The notes under the pieces are model-generated. The model saw nothing but the letters and a program-made list of their open reading frames with translations, ran no database searches and was not told the DNA's origin. From the IMG/VR virus record IMGVR_UViG_3300035388_000018, positions 1 through 58,336 of that record: a DNA stretch of 58,336 nt; one strand, given 5' to 3'. This DNA is from a virus. Made by a program: the position numbers and the translations under genes. Below, piece by piece: positions 18,804 to 49,658 of this stretch (position 1 is the stretch's first letter; every line of letters begins with the position of its first letter).

Positions 18804-20438
18804 ATGACAGTCACATTTAAAGATACCGCATCCACCATATGGCAGAATCAGGAGGTTACATTCTATGGCCGTCAGGTTGATATTGAGGGTTCTGGTAGCT
18901 GTTTGGATTTTTGCACAAGTTTGAGTGATATCAGTAAGGTTACAGGCTTGATAATCGAGAATTCCCAGTTTGATTTTCAAGCAGACATAAGCGCTTTGAC
19001 GAAACTGGTAGACCTCACGGGGGCCGCAAGTCAGCTTGATCTGCAAGCCGATACGAGCGTTTTGACGAAACTGGTAGGCCTGGCAGGTGGCGCAAACCAG
19101 TTTAGCTTTCAAACCGATACGAGCGATTTGACTAAGCTGGTAAGCTTGGTGGGCGGCGCAAGTCAGATTGGTTTTCAAACAGGTGTGAGCGATTTAACAA
19201 AGCTGGTGGACTTGGCGGGATCTGCATGCCGGTTTGATCTCCAAACAGGCATGAGTGCTTTAACAAAGCTGGTAGATTTGACGGGATATCCAAGTCAATT
19301 TGATTTGCAAACCGATATAAGCGCCCTCATAAAGCTGGTGGACATGGTAGGCGATCCCAGCCAGTTTGATTTCCAAGCCGGCATAAGCGTTTTGACAAAA
19401 CTGGTGGACCTGGCGGGCAGTTCGATCCAGTTTGATTTTCAAGCAGGCATAGGCGTGCTCACGAAGTTGGTGGACATGGTGGGCGATCCAAGCCAGTTTG
19501 GTCTGCAAGCCGGCACGGGATCACTCACGAAGTTGGTGGACCTTGCGGGCAGCTCGAACCGGTTTGATTTCCAAACAGGTATGAGCGCTTTGACGAAGCT
19601 GGTAACTTTGACGGGGGGTTCAAGTCAGTTTGATTTCCAAGCAGGTGTAAGCGCACTCACGAAACTGGTAGCTTTGGCGGGGGATGCGAGTGTATTCGGC
19701 CTGTATGCTGGGCCGAGCGGGTTGGTGCGTATCCGTTCCATAACGGGTGGCGCAAGCTTGTTTCAAAATGAGATCAGTGGAAGCGTACTTACCTTATTGT
19801 GCAACGTGACAGGCGGAGCCAACAAATTCGATTTTTTTGCCAGTCACAGTATGTTGACAAAACAGGTCGCTTTAATAGGTGCCCCTAATATATTTAATCT
19901 CCAGGGCAGTGTATCGCCCTTAACGTTCGTGGGGAATCTTTTAGCGGGAGATGGGCACTTTGCCTTTGCATCCGAGGAAAGCACTCTCAGTAAGCTTGTG
20001 GAGCTTGTGGGCGGGGGTTCTTGTATTGATTTCTTGGGCGATACTTCGCGCGTAACGGCTTTATGCAATATCGTGCCCGGGTTGTCGGTTTTGGAAATGG
20101 GTTTGAGTGCCGGCGAAGTGGCAAAAATGGCACTTATTTACCCGGATTCGTCAGTTTTTAACATGCTTTCGGGCTCAAGCGCATTGTCCGCGCTCAAGCC
20201 GATTTTCCCCGGCAATAGTTGTTTTAATTTTGAAGGCAAGGGCAGCAATATCATATTTTGGTCATATCCGCTCAATGCATTTGTTGCACAGCAAGGGGTT
20301 TATGCTTTTGTTTCAATAAAAAATAGTATTTTTCAGCATACGGCTACAGCGCCAGGCATTTTTGTGTTCACGGCTAATACTGAAAATTTTAATAGAGTAG
20401 GTAATTTAATCAATTTTTGTCGTAAAATTAGGAAGTAA
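18804..20438 (+). CDS. 22-residue repeat protein, putative beta-solenoid fibre or spike
   Basis: A 544-residue protein preceded by AGAGG. Residues 42-481 are exactly 20 uninterrupted repeats of 22 residues with consensus LTKLVDLxGxxSQFDFQAxxS; 41 residues precede and 63 follow them. Each unit has two short hydrophobic strands (TKLVDL and QFDFQ) separated by a Gly/Ser turn, which suggests a beta-solenoid with one coil per repeat. The first twelve units are most alike; the last eight diverge. The C-terminal 63 residues are Phe/Val-rich (GVYAFVSIKN, APGIFVFTA) and may cap or trimerise. Function is unknown. Its place after the second fibre and its assembly protein suggests a tail spike, fibre tip or decoration. 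No signal peptide is seen. Confidence 0.7.
   Translation: MTVTFKDTASTIWQNQEVTFYGRQVDIEGSGSCLDFCTSLSDISKVTGLIIENSQFDFQADISALTKLVDLTGAASQLDLQADTSVLTKLVGLAGGANQFSFQTDTSDLTKLVSLVGGASQIGFQTGVSDLTKLVDLAGSACRFDLQTGMSALTKLVDLTGYPSQFDLQTDISALIKLVDMVGDPSQFDFQAGISVLTKLVDLAGSSIQFDFQAGIGVLTKLVDMVGDPSQFGLQAGTGSLTKLVDLAGSSNRFDFQTGMSALTKLVTLTGGSSQFDFQAGVSALTKLVALAGDASVFGLYAGPSGLVRIRSITGGASLFQNEISGSVLTLLCNVTGGANKFDFFASHSMLTKQVALIGAPNIFNLQGSVSPLTFVGNLLAGDGHFAFASEESTLSKLVELVGGGSCIDFLGDTSRVTALCNIVPGLSVLEMGLSAGEVAKMALIYPDSSVFNMLSGSSALSALKPIFPGNSCFNFEGKGSNIIFWSYPLNAFVAQQGVYAFVSIKNSIFQHTATAPGIFVFTANTENFNRVGNLINFCRKIRK
18927..20246 (+). repeat. Twenty in-frame 66-bp tandem repeats
   Basis: The DNA counterpart of the repeat protein: 20 units of 66 bp with no indels, from codon 42 to codon 481. 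Shared words such as ACGAAACTGGT and TTTGATTTCCAAGC recur, best conserved in units 2-12. The in-phase length and gradual decay toward the 3' end suggest past expansion by unequal recombination, now under coding constraint. Confidence 0.85.
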
Positions 20439-34726: not shown

Positions 34727-34760
34727 AAATGGCCGCCACTTGATTGCGGCGGCCATTTTC
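34727..34760 (+). terminator. Strong bidirectional terminator before the portal gene
   Basis: AAATGGCCGCC at 34727-34737 and GGCGGCCATTT at 34748-34758 form a perfect 11-bp stem with a 10-base loop, followed by T. The base composition (A-rich left edge, T-rich right edge) suits termination in either direction. Confidence 0.7.
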
Positions 34761-34790
34761 ATAATTAGTGAGTACGGCGAGGGGCTACCC

Positions 34791-36458
34791 ATGTCTAAAA
34801 AGAAATCTAAGATAAAAACCATAGAAAAAATTTCGCTTCTATGGGGCCGTCTTTTCGGTGGTTACGACAGCGAACGGAACGATCAAAGTAGCGATATTGT
34901 TGATATCAATTCGCAGGGCAGCGCAAGCGAGTTATTACCGCGGCCCGGCAACATGCTGGCCACGGAAGAGATTATAAAAGCGGCTGAAATCGGGACCGCT
35001 GAAACGGAAAAACTTGCAGAGACGTTCCCCTTGGAGCGTTTGGCAAAATATGGCGTTTTGACCAGCATGGACCGGGACCCTACCATTAACGCGGCCATTA
35101 CCCTGCATGTCAACCAAGCTTTAAGTGCAAAAACAGCAACCGGTGAGATTATTTCCATTGAATCGACTTCTGACAAAGATAATAAGTTTGTCAATGATCT
35201 TCGGGATACATTCAAGGAAATGATAAACAAAGATTGCCAGAAGTGGGCCTATAATGCCGCCTTGCATGGTATTTGGTATGTCCGGCCCTATGGATTTAAA
35301 GGCACGGGCATAACTCATGTCCGGAGTGACTTTTACACGCATCCCCGTTTCATTAAAGAGTATGAGCACGGCGGCCGCCTGGCCGGTTACACGCATGCCT
35401 ATCAGAATATTGCGAAAGAGGGGCGTATCGAGTTGATGGAGCCCTGGAAATTCGTCTCTTTTAAAATCCCTAACATAAAAAACGACACACTGATTGAGCC
35501 TATCCGGTTTGACCAAGAAAAGTTTGATATCGGTGACGATGATTGTTTGGCGGAAGAGCTTGTAGAAACGCAGAGCTATGGCAAGTCTATCATTGAAACG
35601 GCCTTTGATCCATGGTTTGACCTTCAAAACGCAATCATGAGCCTCAATATGTCCCGGCGCAATGCGGCCCGCCTTGAGCGTGTGGTGGGCGTCAATACCG
35701 GTAAGCTTTCTCCCCTGAAAGCGGCTGAATACCTAAATTCAGTATCGGGCCAGCTAAAAAAAGCGAATGAGCAACACGCAAAGCAAGCCATCACCAAGGG
35801 GTTTTTCCAGACTGTCATCAACCACCTGATTCCCATCTTCGGTGATCGCGGCCGGCTTGACATTTCAACCGTGGAAGGGTCCCCGAATATCGAAGGCCTT
35901 GAGGACGTAATGTTCCATGTCAAACGACTGGGCGGCGCCCTGGGGGCGGATCCTTCTTTGTTGGGGTTTGGAGACATGCTTTCCGGTGGTTTGGGCGAAG
36001 GCGGCTATTTTCGTATGTCGATTATGGCGGCCGTTAAATCAAATTTGATTCGGCAGGCTATCAGGGATGGATTGGAAGAGCTGTTTAACATCCACATTGC
36101 CTTGAAATACGGTCAATACTTTTTACCCGGTGAACGGCCTTGGCGTATCGTTTTTAATTCAATTTCGACGGCCGTGGAGCGTGAAGAGCAGGAGAACATG
36201 GAAGGGCGGGTTAATTTTGCAACGATGCTTGCCGGATTGGTCCAGACCGTTGATCCTGAATTCTCAAAAATTGAATGGAATGCCTTTAATAACTATCTGT
36301 GGACAGACATTTTAAAGGTTGATGAGGAAAAATATAAGGCCATTTTCCCGAAAAAAATGGAAGCTCCGCCGGCGGAAGGGGAAGAGCCCTTAATGGAGTC
36401 GGCTATTGAAGATCAGGTAACCAAAATAATTGATAAATTTTATGAGAGGGGTGTTTAA
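34791..36458 (+). CDS. Portal protein, gp20-like
   Basis: A 555-residue protein. I use ATG 34791, preceded by AGGGG; an earlier in-frame TTG falls inside the terminator stem. Portal signs are the acidic stem and clip region (SMDRDPTINAAITLHVNQAL, residues about 87-106), SYGKSIIETAFDPWFD (about 263-278) and the conserved loop LGGALGADPSLLGFGDML (about 383-400) with GLGEGGYFRMSIM after it. The length is close to T4 gp20-type portals (about 520). The dodecameric portal forms the DNA entry channel at one capsid vertex. The protease gene starts at its stop (TAAATG). Confidence 0.85.
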   Translation: MSKKKSKIKTIEKISLLWGRLFGGYDSERNDQSSDIVDINSQGSASELLPRPGNMLATEEIIKAAEIGTAETEKLAETFPLERLAKYGVLTSMDRDPTINAAITLHVNQALSAKTATGEIISIESTSDKDNKFVNDLRDTFKEMINKDCQKWAYNAALHGIWYVRPYGFKGTGITHVRSDFYTHPRFIKEYEHGGRLAGYTHAYQNIAKEGRIELMEPWKFVSFKIPNIKNDTLIEPIRFDQEKFDIGDDDCLAEELVETQSYGKSIIETAFDPWFDLQNAIMSLNMSRRNAARLERVVGVNTGKLSPLKAAEYLNSVSGQLKKANEQHAKQAITKGFFQTVINHLIPIFGDRGRLDISTVEGSPNIEGLEDVMFHVKRLGGALGADPSLLGFGDMLSGGLGEGGYFRMSIMAAVKSNLIRQAIRDGLEELFNIHIALKYGQYFLPGERPWRIVFNSISTAVEREEQENMEGRVNFATMLAGLVQTVDPEFSKIEWNAFNNYLWTDILKVDEEKYKAIFPKKMEAPPAEGEEPLMESAIEDQVTKIIDKFYERGV

Positions 36459-37457
36459 ATGCCGGAAACAATAAAATGCAAGTTTAATTTATTCGAAGAG
36501 GGCCGGGAATATACCGGGCATCACCGAAAGTATGTTCTTGAAAATGCAAGGCGTGTCTGTTACGCGCCCGGGACCAGGGAAGGGCTCAGACTTCGGGAAA
36601 AATTAGGATACCTGGGCCACGGCCGGCGGGAAATGGCCGGCAAGATCCGGATCGGTGAAGTCGAAAAAGTGGAAATGCCGGATGGGTCCATGGCGGTTGT
36701 CGAAAATGTCCCAAGCAATGTGACCACGTTTTTTGAAATCGACAAAGATGGAAACGTTGACCACCACCAAGAAATTTTAGGCACGAACCAGCCCGGTAAA
36801 ATTGTTTCGGGCCTGAACCAATCCAAGGTGGGCGGTTTCTCTTGGGCTATGGGTGGCAGTGACGGCGGGCAGCATGGTGCCACACGAGTTTCGTCGTTTG
36901 AGGGGTTTGACTATGTTATGAACCCGGGTTTTTCTGCAAACCGGGGGTATGTCCTTGAATCAGCTGGGGCCCGGGATATGATACTTGAAAGTATTTGTAA
37001 AACCGGGATCGATGACAAGGTGGCTGAAAAATACCTTGAAAATTGGGCTGCATCGGCACAGGTCCAGGCAATTGAACTTGAGGAAAAGCTTGCATCGGCT
37101 GAAATATTCGAGTCGGCTTTGATTGAGAAAAGTGAGGCCTTAGCCGCTGAAAATGAAGCGTTTAAAAAGCAGGCTGAAGGAAGGCAGGCTTTAATCACTG
37201 AATGTGCCAAAAATAGCACGGTGGTTATCCCTGCCGGTGTTGCGGATGCACTTATCAGTATGGCGAATGAGGATGATTTTAATAAGCTGGTCGGCTTTTT
37301 TGAATCCGCCGGTCATGCTGACCTTTCCCGGTATCCGTTACCCGGGGTTGAACGGGAAAAAATAATGGTTGAAAAGTATCCGGTCAAAAGAAAGCCTGAG
37401 TATGGGCAGGCGGCGGCCGGTGTTGATTTTGGTGGCAAATCTTTTATCGTTCGATAA
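36459..37457 (+). CDS. Head maturation protease with scaffold-like C-terminus
   Basis: A 332-residue protein, AGAGGGG before ATG 36459 and directly abutting the portal stop. The first 180 residues look like a prohead protease: YLGHGRREMAGKIRIGEVE, then NVPSNVTTFFEIDKDGNV, HHQEILGTN and SKVGGFSWAMGGSDGGQ. The residues 185-270 are helical and Ala/Glu-rich (LEEKLASAEIFESALIE), as in protease-scaffold fusions that are cut and expelled from the head. It would cleave scaffold and capsid proteins in the prohead. The catalytic residues are not certain. A major capsid gene does not follow. Confidence 0.75.
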   Translation: MPETIKCKFNLFEEGREYTGHHRKYVLENARRVCYAPGTREGLRLREKLGYLGHGRREMAGKIRIGEVEKVEMPDGSMAVVENVPSNVTTFFEIDKDGNVDHHQEILGTNQPGKIVSGLNQSKVGGFSWAMGGSDGGQHGATRVSSFEGFDYVMNPGFSANRGYVLESAGARDMILESICKTGIDDKVAEKYLENWAASAQVQAIELEEKLASAEIFESALIEKSEALAAENEAFKKQAEGRQALITECAKNSTVVIPAGVADALISMANEDDFNKLVGFFESAGHADLSRYPLPGVEREKIMVEKYPVKRKPEYGQAAAGVDFGGKSFIVR

Positions 37458-37467
37458 CGGGGGTGGT

Positions 37468-37755
37468 ATGAGCGAGTTATCAGCGATAATGTCAACACTT
37501 GAGAACCATGGCCGGAAATTAGAAACGATAGAGGGCGCTATCGCAGCAATCGCCGTCCAGGATGAGCAAATACAAAGTTTGCAAACACAGATGACGGCGT
37601 TGTTTGCAAAGCTTGAAGTGGTTTTAGGCCCCGAGGGAACGATTGTCCATATGAAAGAGCATCAAGCCAGCTGCCCAAAGTCTCAAGTCAAGTGGCTATG
37701 GACGGCGATAGCAGCACAGGCGCTAATGATTATTGGTAAATTTTTGACTGGATAA
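37468..37755 (+). CDS. Coiled-coil protein with C-terminal membrane anchor
   Basis: A 95-residue protein from ATG 37468 with GGGGGTGG upstream; an earlier in-frame start overlapping the protease gene is not supported. Residues about 5-50 form a coiled coil (MSTLENHGRKLETIEGAIA, then QDEQIQSLQTQMTALFAKL) and residues about 74-93 a membrane segment (LWTAIAAQALMIIGKFL). This layout is that of XhlA-type cell-lysis or surface proteins. Its position, ten bases after the protease gene, is odd for a lysis gene. A role in lysis, superinfection exclusion or head assembly on membranes is possible. Confidence 0.5.
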   Translation: MSELSAIMSTLENHGRKLETIEGAIAAIAVQDEQIQSLQTQMTALFAKLEVVLGPEGTIVHMKEHQASCPKSQVKWLWTAIAAQALMIIGKFLTG

Positions 37756-37761
37756 AATAGG

Positions 37762-37799
37762 CCTGGGCCGTTTCGTGGGTGATCGCGGGGCGGTCCAGG
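37762..37799 (+). other. GC-rich hairpin next to the origin
   Basis: CCTGGGCCG at 37762-37770 pairs with CGGTCCAGG at 37791-37799 (one G-U) across a 20-base loop. It sits between the last rightward gene and the first iteron; no T-run follows. It may end late transcription or be part of the origin. Confidence 0.35.
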
Positions 37800-37805
37800 T
37801 CGAAC

Positions 37806-38156
37806 TTGGAATGCAAACCACCATCGTCCTCTAAATCTGTGGCGGTGTTTTATCTTTATATAGATAGGGTTAAGGGATAAGACAGTTTTTGTGCATCTAA
37901 GCATTTGTAATATTTAAAAAAGTGCAGGTTCAACTTGGAATGCAAACCACTATCCCCCGGTCAATTTGGAATGTAAACCACCACCTATACGCTTAATTTG
38001 GAATGCAAACCACCACCAATGGGCCTATTTTCTTGGGTGATACGGTCAACTTGGAATGCAAACCACCACCTTATGCGCTTAACTTGGAATGCAAACCATC
38101 ACTTTCGTTGGTCGATTGGAATGCAAACCACCACTTTTGTGGAATGCAAACCACCA
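37806..38156. repeat. Iteron array, probable plasmid replication origin
   Basis: Eight copies of an 18-bp repeat TTGGAATGCAAACCACCA, all in the same direction, start at 37806, 37935, 37966, 37998, 38051, 38084, 38116 and (with the first base missing) 38140. Spacing between several neighbours is 31-33 bp, close to three helical turns, and 53 or 24 elsewhere; the first copy is 129 bp away. Variants are C-to-T at base 9 in the third copy, ACTA ending in the second, and ATCA in the sixth. RepA ends two bases beyond the array. Repeats of this kind bind the initiator and control copy number. The stretch 37824-37934 is AT-rich and could be the melting region. Confidence 0.8.
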
Positions 38157-38157
38157 T

Positions 38158-39156
38158 CTATGGCGTTTGTACGGTGTCTTTTTTGATCAATTTATTGATA
38201 GCGGTTGCCCTTTTTGCTGCATAGTTGAATTTAGGCGCTGTTACAATTGTTATCATGCCGTCTATGATTTTCCGGCCATTATATGTATTGTCTATTTGAT
38301 ATTTATGTACTGTCTCTTTGTCTATCATTTCATCCAGGGCTTTTTTTATTTCCCGGATGTTGGTTGCTAAACTTTTGTAAAATTTTCCACCCGACTCCCG
38401 TATCAATGTCGTGACCTTAATGGTGAAAGTCTGAGTTACGCTTGCTTGCGTAAATATGTGAGCTAACCTTTTGTGTAGGTATCGAGCCATTATTTTTTTG
38501 TATGACATGCATGTAACATAGTCATATTGTCGGAAAGTCCCCTCACGGATACAGCGATCCACAAGAATATTAAATCTGACAAAGCACCGGGCGTCGCCGG
38601 ATGTTTTTAGCCATTCGGCCCTGGTACTCATACCTAAACTTTCAAAAATGTTTGAGCTTATAACAGATGTCCCGTCGGCATTTGACAATTCGATATGCGT
38701 TCGGCTGCATATGGCAAGCGCCTCTTTGATTTGGTTGATATTCAGGTCGTGTCCACTGCGTTTTAATTCGTTCTGCAGCTCAGTTAAGGTAAAGACAACG
38801 CCAGCTTTATTGTCCAAATAGAAACCCTTTCCGTCTGTAGCCAGTTTGCGTAAGGCGTCTTCAACTATCTCTTCTCTATTCCCTGGGAAATGGTCTCTAT
38901 AGATTCCGTCTTTCCCTTCTATTCGGGCCGGGATTATATCCACTTGATATTCATGCTTATCAAACACGAATTCACGGTGTAAGGGCTCTTGCCGTATCGC
39001 TACTTTGCTGTTGTTCCAACGGTCATATTTTGGGATGGCATCGTACAGGTGTATGGTATTTGAATATTTACTGGGTTGGGTTACAATCTGGAACAAACTC
39101 ATTTGTTCCATCTTTTTAAACTTTTTAATCCTTTCTGGGAATTTAGTGTCCTTCAT
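38158..39156 (-). CDS. RepA-like plasmid replication initiator
   Basis: A 332-residue protein. Its ATG at 39156 (leftward) has AGAGGA five bases upstream; an earlier in-frame start is not needed. It looks like a plasmid initiator: SNTIHLYDAIPKYDRW, then HFPGNREEIVEDALRKLA, a helical region with TLTELQNELKRSGHDLN (likely winged-helix) and YVTCMSYKKIMARYLHKRLAH. It overlaps the upstream parG-like gene by 14 bases, forming the operon parA-parG-repA, and ends at the iteron array, which should be its binding site. The precise Rep family was not identified. Confidence 0.7.
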   Translation of the reverse strand: MKDTKFPERIKKFKKMEQMSLFQIVTQPSKYSNTIHLYDAIPKYDRWNNSKVAIRQEPLHREFVFDKHEYQVDIIPARIEGKDGIYRDHFPGNREEIVEDALRKLATDGKGFYLDNKAGVVFTLTELQNELKRSGHDLNINQIKEALAICSRTHIELSNADGTSVISSNIFESLGMSTRAEWLKTSGDARCFVRFNILVDRCIREGTFRQYDYVTCMSYKKIMARYLHKRLAHIFTQASVTQTFTIKVTTLIRESGGKFYKSLATNIREIKKALDEMIDKETVHKYQIDNTYNGRKIIDGMITIVTAPKFNYAAKRATAINKLIKKDTVQTP

Positions 39157-39358
39157 TTTTCCTCTTTTCGGCCTGAGCGAGTGCGTCAACGATGGCGTTT
39201 GTAATAAAGTCTTGGATCGTTTCTTCGGCTATAGCGCAATACACCCGCATTCGTTTAAGTACATCTTTATTTATTTTGGCGTTAAGGGGACCCCTGCCCG
39301 GGGTGGTGGCGGTAGGCCTGTTGGCTTCTTTTGCCATTTTTGCAAGATTACTTTTCAT
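39143..39358 (-). CDS. ParG-like ribbon-helix-helix partition protein
   Basis: A 71-residue protein with AAGGAG before the ATG at 39358, overlapping parA by 11 bases. The N-terminal 30 residues are basic and unstructured (KMAKEANRPTATTPGRG), then comes a ribbon-helix-helix pattern: GPLNAKINKDVLKRMRVYC and ETIQDFITNAIVDALAQAE. Size and order after a ParA of 211 residues match the ParF-ParG systems: ParG binds the centromere and operator and stimulates ParF ATPase. It would also repress the operon promoter. Confidence 0.75.
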   Translation of the reverse strand: MKSNLAKMAKEANRPTATTPGRGPLNAKINKDVLKRMRVYCAIAEETIQDFITNAIVDALAQAEKRKNEGH

Positions 39359-39983
39359 GGGTTTTTCTCCTTTTGAAGATTTCTTTTTTTAAAGATTGGA
39401 TTTCTTTGCTGGCAGCACTCATGGGCGCGTATGACAACACGGTTTCACCATTGATAAGAGCGTTCACATAGGCGATTCTGTGCGAAATTTCGGCCCGTAG
39501 GACGGGAACGCGGTAATATTCAAGGGCCTGCCTTGCTTCCCGGCCAACAATGGTGTTTGCAACCTTTCGAGAAATTAGAATTCGGGCGTCCAGGGCCTTG
39601 TTGTATTCCTTTGCCTCTTTGATAAGCGGAACGATGTCGTTACTGGCCCAGATATCGAGAGGGGACGGCGTTATGGGGACAATGGCTATATCGGCACTCA
39701 GAAGACAGGAAAGCGTGATGTCGCTTATTCCTGGCGGCGCATCGATGACCGTGTGTGTAAACCCACGGGTTAGCTTTTCAATGGCGGTGTGTAATGGTTC
39801 GGGGTGGTGGATGACATCGAAATGATTATTATCTGCGATTGCTTTCCACCTGGTGGCGCTGGCTTGCGGGTCCCCGTCGATCAACCGGACCGGCGTTCGC
39901 TTCCCGGCCATGGCGTGTGAAAGATTGATGGCAATGGTTGTTTTCCCGACTCCGCCCTTTTGGTTGACAATGCAAATCACCAT
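39348..39983 (-). CDS. ParA/ParF-type partition ATPase
   Basis: A 211-residue ATPase with TAGGA before the ATG at 39983. The deviant Walker A motif KGGVGKT sits at residues 9-15, after VICIVNQ; the switch region shows LIDGDPQASAT (about 33-43) and VIDAPPGISD (about 80-89). Its size, without an N-terminal DNA-binding domain, is that of the ParF or type Ib class. It segregates plasmid copies on the nucleoid. It is the first gene of the leftward parA-parG-repA operon. Confidence 0.9.
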   Translation of the reverse strand: MVICIVNQKGGVGKTTIAINLSHAMAGKRTPVRLIDGDPQASATRWKAIADNNHFDVIHHPEPLHTAIEKLTRGFTHTVIDAPPGISDITLSCLLSADIAIVPITPSPLDIWASNDIVPLIKEAKEYNKALDARILISRKVANTIVGREARQALEYYRVPVLRAEISHRIAYVNALINGETVLSYAPMSAASKEIQSLKKEIFKRRKTHEK

Positions 39984-40815: not shown

Positions 40816-41406
40816 TTAAATCTCATTCGCATAAACATTTTTAATTTCAACATCCGTAATGCAAAGATAGATGAGTGTTTCCTTCTGGCTACTGTGATTC
40901 AGACATTTCATCAAGGTCGGCAGGCTCATACCGTAATTTGTGTACTGCTGGTAGGCCCACGTTTTCCGTAGTGTGTGACTGCCGTAATTCCCCGGCATGT
41001 TCACCCGCCCGCACCAACCTTTCACCAGTCGGCTCAGTGAGGATACGGTGAGGACAGGCGCCCGGTAACTGCGAAACAGGTAATTATCATCCTGATAATC
41101 GTGGGATGCCAAAAGTTTTTGAATCGCATCGACACAAAGGGTGTTTAAATGCAGGTCTTTGACTTTGCCGGTCTTTTTTTCCCTCAATGTCAGCTTCCCC
41201 ATAGCCTGAAGGTATTTGACATCCTTGACTTTGATGGAAAGCAGATCCGAAGCTCGAAGGTTTGTATTTACCCCGATAACGAACAGGGCATAATTTCTGG
41301 GATTATGGGAAAGCAACTGTTTTATAGTTGCAATGTCTTTTGGGGCCCGGATCGGTTCTACCCTTATGATTGATCCTTTTTTGGGTCGGTTCGAGTTTTT
41401 TTTCAT
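40816..41406 (-). CDS. Short tyrosine recombinase
   Basis: A 196-residue recombinase, AAGGA before ATG 41406. All catalytic positions are visible: R51 (TNLRASDLL), K76/K77 (REKKTGK), H144 and R147 in SHTLRKTWAY, H171 (LNHSS) and Y180. It lacks the usual N-terminal core-binding domain of XerC, Cre or lambda Int. In a phage-plasmid it most likely resolves multimers (as Cre does in P1), circularises DNA or inverts segments; integration is less likely as no attachment site is seen. It is the last gene of the leftward operon, overlapping the zinc-finger gene by four bases. Confidence 0.8.
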   Translation of the reverse strand: MKKNSNRPKKGSIIRVEPIRAPKDIATIKQLLSHNPRNYALFVIGVNTNLRASDLLSIKVKDVKYLQAMGKLTLREKKTGKVKDLHLNTLCVDAIQKLLASHDYQDDNYLFRSYRAPVLTVSSLSRLVKGWCGRVNMPGNYGSHTLRKTWAYQQYTNYGMSLPTLMKCLNHSSQKETLIYLCITDVEIKNVYANEI

Positions 41407-41741
41407 AACGATTCCTTGTTGTGCGCGTCATAACACAATTGATTACAAAAAACTTTATCCTTGTCATAAACAATTTCGGATAAATCGCTGATTGTAATAG
41501 CTATATTTGCCCCGCAATGGCTACATTTGAAAAGCCACATCTTTTGTTCAATCAAAAGTTTAGGAGGAACAAAGCCGGTTTTTGAGTAGATGTCAAAACC
41601 GGGGCGGCGAATACAGCTTGTGTAATTAGGGTTCAGCTTTAATCTTTCGGAGCCTATCCTTTTGGCCTTGATGCCATCATTGTGGAAAACTATCGTATAG
41701 TCACCGTCCCAGTGGTCATCTTGTATTTCCCAAGCCTTCAT
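41403..41741 (-). CDS. Zinc-finger protein, paralogue of the DnaB-domain fusion
   Basis: A 112-residue protein with AAGGGA before ATG 41741. It aligns almost end to end with the first 112 residues of the protein at 48261-49151: MKAWEIQDD, TIVFHNDG, FVPPKLLIE, then the zinc ligands C73, C76, C99 and C103 (C-x2-C-x22-C-x3-C). It has no DnaB part. It lies between the recombinase and the gene at 41738, with four-base overlaps on both sides. DNA or protein binding is likely but not shown. The pair suggests duplication within the phage, with later fusion or loss of the helicase domain. Confidence 0.65.
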   Translation of the reverse strand: MKAWEIQDDHWDGDYTIVFHNDGIKAKRIGSERLKLNPNYTSCIRRPGFDIYSKTGFVPPKLLIEQKMWLFKCSHCGANIAITISDLSEIVYDKDKVFCNQLCYDAHNKESL

Positions 41742-46136: not shown

Positions 46137-46985
46137 TTATGCTGCTTTGGGTAATTTAAGCTGGCGGTCCTCTTCTGTAAAACGTTTTTCAAAATCATGA
46201 ACTGTTTTATAATCCTTAAACCCCCGGTTATGCTCCGGCCGTGCCGCATCCATTTCAAGCGTATTCGTCCATAAGTCGGGGTAATGTTTTCTCAGCGTCC
46301 GGAGGTCCCCTATTCGCTGAAGCGGGCAACAATAACATGAAACTCTGCTAAAATGCTCATACAATCCGCCCCATCTGTATTCGTGATCATAGCAATATTG
46401 CAGTGCGTCGGCTTCCGTGACGCCCCATTCTATCAATGGGTATCGCCCGGGATATTTGGAATCATCTTTAATCCGATGGCTTTCGTCGGCAGCATAGCCA
46501 ATACATGAAACCGGATTCGGTATCGGCTTCATGAAATAATTAAGGGTATTGACCTTTTCACGGGTACACCACCGCCGGCCGGGTGAAGGCCAGCTATTGC
46601 CATACCTGTACACTTTACCCTTCAACATGCGCCTTAATAATACTTTCGATTGCGGCATGATATCCGGCATTGTCTGGTATTCACGCATTGTTTCGAACTT
46701 TTTTTGCAGATCCGGCAACGACAATTTTTTTAATGCGGTCATATTGGCAATAATGGGCCGGTGAAACATCCAATAGTCAAAGGGCAACCGGCTATGCAGT
46801 CGCCAGATTTTAAGGCCGGTCCGTTTCTCAAGCAAATTGATATGATCGTACATCCCCGGGAATTCCCAACCGGTGTCAAAAAATACGACCGAATGAATGG
46901 GGATACCGCGTTCTATCGCCATGAGTAGCATGGCGGTTGAATCTTTGCCGCCGGACAGGGAAAATACATTGTTTTGTTCAATCAC
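46137..46985 (-). CDS. PP-loop ATPase, PAPS reductase-like family
   Basis: A 282-residue enzyme; GTG start 46985 with AAGGAG eight bases upstream. SGGKDST at residues 11-17 is the PP-loop that binds ATP. Other family signs are VFFDTGWEFP (about 34-43), GRRWCTREK (about 135-143), CIGYAADESHR (about 160-170) and CYCCPLQR (about 217-224), which could coordinate a cluster or zinc. Such phage enzymes are annotated PAPS reductase or sulfotransferase-like; relatives act in sulfur transfer, including phosphorothioation (DndC) and tRNA thiolation. Which reaction holds here is open. It starts the unit driven by promoter copy 3. Confidence 0.7.
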   Translation of the reverse strand: MIEQNNVFSLSGGKDSTAMLLMAIERGIPIHSVVFFDTGWEFPGMYDHINLLEKRTGLKIWRLHSRLPFDYWMFHRPIIANMTALKKLSLPDLQKKFETMREYQTMPDIMPQSKVLLRRMLKGKVYRYGNSWPSPGRRWCTREKVNTLNYFMKPIPNPVSCIGYAADESHRIKDDSKYPGRYPLIEWGVTEADALQYCYDHEYRWGGLYEHFSRVSCYCCPLQRIGDLRTLRKHYPDLWTNTLEMDAARPEHNRGFKDYKTVHDFEKRFTEEDRQLKLPKAA

Positions 46986-47164: not shown

Positions 47165-47320
47165 TCAGGCATCCCCCTTGTCGACTTCGATATGTGATGA
47201 TTGTTCGTTACATTCGGGGCAATAAAAAAAATCACCATTTGCGTATGTGGCCGCAAGCGTTACGAATATATTATTGCCCTCATATCCACAATGAGGGCAA
47301 TAAAAGCGCAAAACGTTCAT
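47165..47320 (-). CDS. Small zinc-ribbon protein
   Basis: A 51-residue protein. ATG 47320, nine bases after AAGGA, is better than an ATG 12 codons earlier inside the preceding gene. It is a two-knuckle zinc ribbon: YCPHCGYEG (about 7-15) and YCPECNEQ (about 34-41), with a short acidic tail. It overlaps the thymidylate synthase-like gene by four bases. A nucleic-acid or partner-binding role is likely. Confidence 0.6.
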   Translation of the reverse strand: MNVLRFYCPHCGYEGNNIFVTLAATYANGDFFYCPECNEQSSHIEVDKGDA

Positions 47321-48132
47321 ATCGAAATTTCCTTTTTGCTGGCAATCTTCAGACACCGGGCTTCGGCCAATTCAACGGCATACCCATACATATGGAGCCC
47401 CTTGCTGCTAATAACCATTTCCCCCTGATCAACTCCGATCATGGCGGCCATGTATTCTTGCAGTAAACTGATCCCTGCAAGATTGGCCGGAAGCCCGTTC
47501 CATAGATCCCATGACCGGAAATAAATATGGAAATGCAATTTTCCGTCCTGAATCCTGGTGTCGATATGCCGCAAGCAGGGCGGATCCTCAAGAAGCATGT
47601 CAGTTGGCTGCCCTACCTGCAAAACGATTTGGTTGTTTCGTGGCCCCTTGCTTCTGTATGTCCATATTGCGAATTCGATTTGGTTTAAATACCTACGCCA
47701 CGGGGATATATAGGAATGACCACTATCTATGATGAGAGCCCCTGCGGTTGTGGCGTCTACAACCCTACATTCAGATTGGTTGTCATCGACCAAAGGCATG
47801 CGGGTCAACCGTTCACCGTATGTATATTGCTCCCCCTCTTTTTTTTCCGGCGTCATAAGGTATTTCCAGTATTGTTCGGCAACATAATCCTTTTCAACCG
47901 GCGGTGGCAGTGTGCTGCCTTCTGGCAGTTCCGGGACCAATGGCCGGCCGTCAACATCCCTGAGATACGGCTTTTCAATATAACCTGTGAAATAATCGAA
48001 TTCAAGACGTGTCTGGCCGGCATAGCTGCCCTGGTCAACGATGAACGTTTGGCCATGGTCAAGTATGGCGTGAACTGCCCTGAACCATACATCCGGCAGC
48101 GTTGTTGCTTTAATCGTTACTGCATCTAACAT
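47317..48132 (-). CDS. Thymidylate synthase homologue
   Basis: A 271-residue protein; GGGGGAG before ATG 48132. Residues and spacings match E. coli ThyA: catalytic C186 (LEDPPCLRHI) is followed 20 residues later by R206-S207-x-D209 (FRSWD), N217 (LPANLAG) eight later, and H247 and Y249 30 residues after that, the same distances as C146, R166-D169, N177 and H207-Y209. Asn at 217 favours a dUMP-type substrate over dCMP. It would make dTMP, or hydroxymethyl-dUMP, for phage DNA. The N-terminal half is divergent, so kinetics and product are unproven. Confidence 0.8.
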   Translation of the reverse strand: MLDAVTIKATTLPDVWFRAVHAILDHGQTFIVDQGSYAGQTRLEFDYFTGYIEKPYLRDVDGRPLVPELPEGSTLPPPVEKDYVAEQYWKYLMTPEKKEGEQYTYGERLTRMPLVDDNQSECRVVDATTAGALIIDSGHSYISPWRRYLNQIEFAIWTYRSKGPRNNQIVLQVGQPTDMLLEDPPCLRHIDTRIQDGKLHFHIYFRSWDLWNGLPANLAGISLLQEYMAAMIGVDQGEMVISSKGLHMYGYAVELAEARCLKIASKKEISI

Positions 48133-48260: not shown

Positions 48261-49151
48261 TTATGATGCCCCCTGCGCCTTTTTATCGTGAATATCACGG
48301 ACGTATTGCATAAGATCGACTGTCGGCAGTATGGCTATATCCACCAAGGATGCAAGGTAGGCGTTCCCGCCGACTGCTTCAAGTTTGCCATCTTTTTTGA
48401 GTGCGTCAGAAATGGTTACAAGGTCGATGAGTTGGTGAAAGGCAAACAATTCCGTAATCGCTGTAAATATTTTCCGGTGAACCGGTGTGAAGTCTTCAGG
48501 TTCCAGGATATTCATGGCTTTTAAAAGGAAATCATCGTTTAACAGTGTCGCGCCGATAACCATCCGTTCTATTGCTTTAATGTCTGTTTTGCCTTGAAAT
48601 TTTTCCCATGCCTTGAGGTCCCCATTTGCAATAAACACCCTGTATTCGCCTTCCTGCGTCAATCGTATCGAACACAGATACTTACTGCCCGGGAACTTAA
48701 AGTAGGCGAACGGCGTCAATTTGGGCCATCCACCACGAAACTGGATGATGGTCAGTTGTGGAAATCTTTTTTTACATTCGGTTTTAAACTCTGCATAGGT
48801 ATTGTTGACGGCCTGCTTTCTTTTTTCCCGGGCGTCGTAACATGCCTGATTGCAAAAAACCCTGCGCCCCGAATAAACGACTTGTGACAAATCTTCTATG
48901 GTCGATTCAGATATGTGGTTAAAACAGTTTTCACATTCAAAATACCATTCATGATTTTCAATTAAAACTTTGGGCGGGACAAACCCCTGTTCGGCGTATT
49001 TGTCAAAAAGGGGACGTCTTTTGCAGGTGACGTATTCGGGGTTTACATCAAGCTCATTCGCTCCCAGGCGCCTTGCAGCTGTCCCGTCTTTGTGAAAAAC
49101 AATGGTTCCACGGTGTTCATCATCATCTTCTTGCACTTCCCATGCTTTCAT
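48261..49151 (-). CDS. Zinc-finger protein fused to a DnaB N-terminal domain
   Basis: A 296-residue protein; AAGGAG before ATG 49151. Residues 1-110 are a paralogue of the protein at 41403-41741, with zinc ligands C73, C76, C100 and C104. Residues about 192-292 match the DnaB helicase N-terminal domain: AIERMVIGATLLNDD, EPEDFTPVHRKIFTAI, IDLVTISDALKKDGKLEAVG, and AYLASLV. In DnaB this domain makes the trimeric collar and binds DnaG primase. The RecA-like ATPase domain is missing. So it is not a helicase. It may act as a loader, a primase-binding decoy or a recruiter of host DnaB. It is 9 bases after the nuclease gene. Confidence 0.75.
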   Translation of the reverse strand: MKAWEVQEDDDEHRGTIVFHKDGTAARRLGANELDVNPEYVTCKRRPLFDKYAEQGFVPPKVLIENHEWYFECENCFNHISESTIEDLSQVVYSGRRVFCNQACYDAREKRKQAVNNTYAEFKTECKKRFPQLTIIQFRGGWPKLTPFAYFKFPGSKYLCSIRLTQEGEYRVFIANGDLKAWEKFQGKTDIKAIERMVIGATLLNDDFLLKAMNILEPEDFTPVHRKIFTAITELFAFHQLIDLVTISDALKKDGKLEAVGGNAYLASLVDIAILPTVDLMQYVRDIHDKKAQGAS

Positions 49152-49160
49152 GTTCTCTCC

Positions 49161-49658
49161 TTATAAATAGGGGTTGTCGTAAATTAAAGGGATCACGCCT
49201 CTCAGATGTAACCGCCTTAACGCTGAATACATAAGTGCTGTCTCACCCTTTGTGTTTATTTCTGTAAAATTGAAGTTGGGGTCTGTCCAGGTATTTCCTT
49301 TGGGGCCCACTTTTTGCCTTGCTGCCCCGTTGCCATCAACCCAAATGAGACCCCATTTATCAGGTAAGTCTTCAGGCATTATTAACCCTTTTGCGCAAAG
49401 ATAAAAACGGATCCGACCAACTCCTTGCCATGGCTGTTTTCTAATAAATTTTCTTTTATCGGCGTGGAAATCGGCCCTTGAAGCCTTGCACTCAATAAGG
49501 ATTGAGAGTCCAGACCTAAAACCAATGGCGTCGGGTGTTTCGCCGGCAAGCGTCGTTAATTCCTTGAACGCAAATCCACATTTTTTTAAAAGCCATTTCT
49601 CAGCGATGCCTACCAGGTCTTTATGCGTATATTTTGTAATTACTTTTTTCTTGCTCAT
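49161..49658 (-). CDS. PD-(D/E)XK nuclease-like protein
   Basis: A 165-residue protein. The nuclease core is TPDAIGFRSGLSILIECKAS (residues about 41-60), with D43 followed by E56-x-K58; RKQPWQGVGRIRFYLCAKG and KWGLIWVDGNG follow as later strands. This is the PD-(D/E)XK fold pattern common in phage recombination and Holliday-junction-type nucleases. It starts at ATG 49658 with only a weak binding site and is two bases behind the next gene upstream, so it may be coupled. The C-terminus (ALMYSALRRLHLRGVIPLIY) may bind DNA. Confidence 0.6.
   Translation of the reverse strand: MSKKKVITKYTHKDLVGIAEKWLLKKCGFAFKELTTLAGETPDAIGFRSGLSILIECKASRADFHADKRKFIRKQPWQGVGRIRFYLCAKGLIMPEDLPDKWGLIWVDGNGAARQKVGPKGNTWTDPNFNFTEINTKGETALMYSALRRLHLRGVIPLIYDNPYL

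Follow-up and report, generated by a model that had tools for sequence, protein, structure and literature searches.

What use does a phage have for the collar of the replicative helicase DnaB, a hub shared by primase, loaders and initiators, when the motor is missing? The question is raised by P0001, an ORF of a P1-like element found in the window (the whole 58,336-nt IMG/VR viral record analyzed here), which a preliminary description had read as a DnaB N-terminal domain (NTD) without the helicase, fused to a zinc module and possibly acting as a loader or decoy. P0001 is a real protein in which a member of the phrog_8514 family is joined to a DnaB docking domain without the motor, and it would fold as two modules (Table 1). 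GC3 is uniform across the junction of these modules (0.465 and 0.468 on its two sides). The gap between P0001 and the upstream phrog_631 gene is 9 nt, and both genes likely belong to one operon.

Table 1. Features of P0001, its surroundings and the loci compared with it (window coordinates unless another sequence is named)
Feature	Position	Strand	Description or basis
P0001, whole ORF, 296 aa	48261..49151	-	phrog_8514 protein + DnaB N-terminal globule
P0001 residues 1-187, complete phrog_8514 domain, alpha/beta	48591..49151	-	phrog_8514 profile, model pLDDT
P0001 residues 1-110, N-terminal sub-domain, putative zinc site	48822..49151	-	alignments, paralogue
P0001 residues 188-192, short junction joining the two domains	48576..48590	-	
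P0001 residues 193-292, DnaB N-globe, six helices	48276..48575	-	PF00772, Foldseek
Shine-Dalgarno AAGGAG of P0001	49157-49162		5 nt 5' of ATG, canonical
Upstream gene, phrog_631	49161..49658	-	weak MmcB-like match, PD-(D/E)XK-like motif
Paralogue, 112 aa, N-terminal sub-domain alone	41403..41741	-	
P1-like portal protein	34740..36458	+	33% identical to P1/P7/D6 portal
Plasmid-type initiator, RepB family	38158..39189	-	about 40% identity to initiators of large conjugative plasmids
L124 DnaB NTD ORF, 131 aa, free-standing	L124:2968-3363		after an unidentified 245-aa ORF
DnaB NTD of pbDPRO (L002, Desulfovibrio-type plasmid), 86 aa	pbDPRO:5585-5845		directly 3' of Rep gene

The identity of the C-terminal domain is supported by profile, sequence and fold comparisons. 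PF00772 matches residues 193–289 with E=3.2e-21 (75.7 bits against a Pfam cut-off of 23), DnaB chains of the PDB are matched at the sequence level with a best E of 1e-9, and only about the first 100 positions of the NCBIfam DnaB models match P0001. The NTD of the DnaB/Ban replicative helicases shows the same six-helix globe with about 35% of identity to residues 193–292, whereas the helical hairpin, the linker helix and the RecA-type ATPase of these helicases are lacking in P0001, whose ORF stops soon after the position of K112 in Gst DnaB. The C-terminal 114 residues (183–296), folded with an alignment of 28 viral DnaB NTD rows, gave an AlphaFold model of six helices with a mean pLDDT of 90, and the top Foldseek matches of this model in the PDB were the DnaB NTDs 2r5u, 2r6a and 1jwe (TM about 0.8, rmsd about 1.7 Å), a fold match that partly depends on the sequence match because the folding alignment contained DnaB rows. 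Folding P0001 with phrog_8514 relatives alone did not resolve the C-terminal region, and a full-length combined alignment (A7) in which DnaB rows were misplaced was kept out of folding. The proposed correspondence between the last ~100 residues and the DnaB NTD therefore holds by sequence as well as by structural comparison. Among the positions conserved at ≥80% in phage DnaB NTDs, P0001 keeps 17 of 21, which indicates that the domain is not decayed and looks able to fold; the conserved residues may reflect merely a recent origin. A proline that is invariant in the DnaB set is replaced by Leu241.

The missing ATPase domain was confirmed. The RecA-type ATPase profile (PF03796, DnaB_C) finds no match in the six frames of the whole 58 kb record while matching in control genomes, and the 128 nt between P0001 and the next gene, a thymidylate-synthase-like ORF, contain no helicase remnant. 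P0001 is thus not a frameshifted or truncated helicase, and no adjacent frame encodes the rest of DnaB. P0001 was also dropped as a DnaG relative (no DnaG-type zinc, TOPRIM or helicase-binding profile of Pfam or NCBIfam matches it), as a known helicase loader (no match to the DnaC, lambda P, G39P or DciA families in Pfam, PHROGs and NCBIfam) and as a known defence protein (no match among the anti-phage defence models of PADLOC).

The remainder of P0001 proved to be more than the zinc module first described, since it comprises a whole phrog_8514 protein. The phrog_8514 profile matches residues 1–187 with E=4.5e-51 over positions 4–200 of 204, and the N-terminal model has a pLDDT mostly above 88 up to residue 180. 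The phrog_8514 proteins of Vibrio phage vB_VpaM_MAR (MAR_35), PaMx11 and Escherichia phage alia resemble this part of P0001 with roughly 33–44% of identity and have the CxxC, CxxxC, GGWP and FPG motifs in common with it. They stop where P0001 runs on into the DnaB globule; unlike such free-standing members of about 190–220 aa, P0001 consists of the full-length family protein plus 109 extra residues. Four near-invariant cysteines (C73-x2-C76 and C100-x3-C104) are candidate ligands whose spacing suggests a zinc site, and to this extent the zinc module stands; the protein of phage alia is without most of them. The N-terminal sub-domain also exists alone, as had been noted, in a paralogue of the same record that matches residues 1–110 only, with 54% of identity. 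A fold search with the N-terminal domain gave nothing significant in the PDB and three matches with E <0.001 among viral models, the best of them being the PaMx11 protein of the same family.

The phrog_8514 part was found by tblastn in many phages and plasmids, the best rows spanning residues 1 to about 190. Among the relatives inspected, nine named ones and fifteen loci from IMG/VR, none carries a DnaB domain; complete relatives mostly measure about 187–223 aa, one (L029) is a short form of 119 aa, and the loci L020 and L030 are cut by contig ends. A 295-aa open frame in the genome G009 was rejected as a fused relative, its extra length being an upstream extension without DnaB domain. The fusion therefore appears unique in what was searched, and since phrog_8514 proteins are complete and free-standing in many phages and plasmids, the C-terminal domain is probably the added part. 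The fused form is known from one IMG/VR record, and an exact search with the P0001 junction, which may omit records very near the window, found no copy in any other IMG/VR contig. A profile scan of genome contigs with the phrog_8514 alignment and a search of 369 gammaproteobacterial genomes gave no relative, both without a positive control.

DnaB globules without a motor are also found in L124 and pbDPRO, so that this part of P0001 is rare yet not unprecedented. Relatives of the C-terminal domain were collected from 64 viral loci, of which only L124 is NTD-only; in the remaining ones the frame continues for 200 or more residues. No DnaB_C is found in the 47 kb record of L124. Faecal phage sequences matching L124 with high coverage were discarded as NTD-only candidates, since they encode complete DnaB proteins or, in one case, are a fragment at the edge of a contig. 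The pbDPRO NTD lies in the Rep frame behind a TAA and is annotated from a non-ATG start; its production by readthrough or from a rare start is possible. No DnaB ATPase is present in the pbDPRO sequence examined, and the Rep and DnaB-NTD pair is not a conserved unit, being absent from the two nearest Rep relatives. Both ORFs resemble P0001 in having an N-globe with no ATPase in the open frame, and differ from it in that they are free-standing or beside a Rep gene and not fused to phrog_8514. The phrog_20000 profile (132 positions) matches P0001 and L124 but also ordinary DnaB in control genomes, and the family possibly consists of motorless DnaB NTD proteins. The view that the architecture was undescribed is consequently retained, as far as the searches reach, for the fusion and given up for the motorless NTD itself. 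A further parallel is offered by DnaG primase, whose C-terminal domain (P16/HBD) resembles the DnaB NTD (PMC4523182) and, as in P0001, is a docking domain behind a zinc-containing N-terminus; P0001 differs from DnaG in having no TOPRIM or DnaG profile match and no hairpin subdomain.

By its gene content, the window derives from a P1-like phage-plasmid whose initiator is of the IncC type, to which we take the matched RepB-family initiators to belong. The record also encodes ParA, a DarB-like protein of 2100 aa and SbcCD; the joining of a P1-like backbone to a RepB-family initiator and ParA is seen at 34740–39983 and in the record as a whole. A portal search of genomes gave a single named relative, in Vibrio owensii. 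G003, the closest of the long relatives (90.8 kb, portal 64% identical), has its gene order in common with most of the window and extends 28 kb past the common region, which shows that the window is a fragment. Neither DnaB nor P0001 was found in G003, where an unrelated 183-aa ORF lies between SbcC and the thymidylate-synthase-like gene. P0001 occupies an accessory position: it is absent from G003 and from the other P1-like relatives, and the gene order on both of its flanks is common to G003. In the region missing from the window, G003 encodes a DnaD/lambda-O-like replication protein, which together with its lack of DnaB is consistent with reliance on host DnaB. Another relative, G007, encodes a full DnaB of 444 aa; given this and the greater extent of G003, the absence of a helicase is demonstrated for this fragment only.

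Other genes of these elements deserve mention. The thymidylate-synthase-like ORF (47317–48132) encodes a 271-aa protein that matches the C-terminal half of thymidylate synthase only, is 56% identical in G003 and is possibly a divergent nucleotide-modifying enzyme. A PAPS-reductase-like protein of 282 aa (46137–46985, phrog_424) falls in the auxiliary metabolic gene class of PHROGs, and a 544-aa ORF near the tail genes (18804–20438) is built from repeats some 25 residues long, of the kind FDFQTGMSALTKLVDLAG. In G003, a 599-aa ORF (L053:13252-15051) has a C-terminal zinc motif and the look of a TnpB-type nuclease.

We tentatively favor, at somewhat less than even confidence, the reading of P0001 as an accessory phage-plasmid gene whose phrog_8514 product acquired a DnaB N-globe by fusion and uses it as a docking tag to the host replisome. 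A gene fusion would have put the N-globe on the C-terminus of the phrog_8514 protein, and the globe would then bind the usual partners of the DnaB collar, either adjacent N-globes of DnaB or a collar-reading primase or initiator. Once bound, it would deliver the phrog_8514 domain to the replisome of the host or, conversely, recruit host DnaB for the phage. This is the most economical reading, the binding and the effect on replication being what we infer. The narrower proposal that the detached collar domain is an address label connecting an early, zinc-containing protein to the replisome of the host is doubtful. Such fork targeting is not described for phages in the literature searched.

It is unlikely that P0001 is a mere passenger, formed when part of a DnaB gene was fused illegitimately and as yet without any role under selection. 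A single known instance, an accessory position missing in relatives and a frame that terminates within the NTD, as a chance stop codon could have caused, all agree with such an origin, but the intact conserved positions and the confident model fold speak against it, as does the lack of any helicase fragment downstream.

A decoy or inhibitor, in which the N-globe would halt host replication by sequestering DnaG of the host or by poisoning the DnaB collar, appears distinctly unlikely even though primase binds to the collar that the DnaB NTD forms. Gst E15, presumably a DnaG-contact residue, aligns with K192 of P0001, and the protein ends near the start of the hairpin, before the positions of I119 and I125. 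In DnaB, the N-globe (helices 1–6) is followed by this hairpin (helices 7–8), which builds the NTD dimers (PMC2761005, PMC4705694); DnaG binding is reported to rest on I119 and I125 of Gst DnaB (PMC2761005), and an H. pylori DnaB NTD without the complete hairpin is a poor binder of DnaG (PMC2761005, PMC4705694). In favor of a decoy, the N-terminal domain of M. tuberculosis DnaB and the complementary domain of DnaG, both purified, bind each other with a Kd of 0.21 μM (PMC12278352). The E. coli DnaB globe makes globe-to-globe contacts in crystals (PMC2761005). Since the P0001 domain stops before the hairpin, the primase-decoy idea is weakened, and collar contacts that are weaker or of another kind, e.g., globe to globe, are more likely than strong capture of DnaG by a decoy; the preliminary description thus keeps its architecture while its DnaG decoy loses ground.

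A helicase recruiter or loader serving the phage, with the N-globe joining the collar of host DnaB while the N-terminal domain binds phage DNA or the initiator of the phage, is improbable. It would suit a phage-plasmid with its own initiator and no helicase in the record, and a domain with a zinc site could bind nucleic acid. However, P0001 matches no loader family, the syntenic G003 has its own DnaD/O-like gene elsewhere, and the N-domain relatives adjoin a mixture of methyltransferase, ASCH, DHHA1, exonuclease and integrase genes and not consistently replication genes (at L031 the neighbor has a weak helicase-loader family match). An assembly chimera or sequencing error, which the single record and the lack of a second copy of the junction could suggest, is very improbable in view of the even GC3, the clean ORF with its Shine-Dalgarno sequence, the flanking gene order common to G003 and the absence of adjacent helicase sequence.

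As a phrog_8514 protein that would dock through a DnaB globe, P0001 would give a first testable function to a widespread phage family that has none, and a phage protein carrying the collar hub alone would serve as a natural probe of the contacts that the N-globe can make by itself. Proteins of the mycobacteriophage D29 Gp65 type consist of the RecA core alone (PMC4523182) and are likewise half a DnaB in a phage, but the opposite half to that of P0001. P0001 also shows the DnaB NTD moving in evolution as a module of its own, the mirror image of the known phage DnaB proteins that have the motor only.
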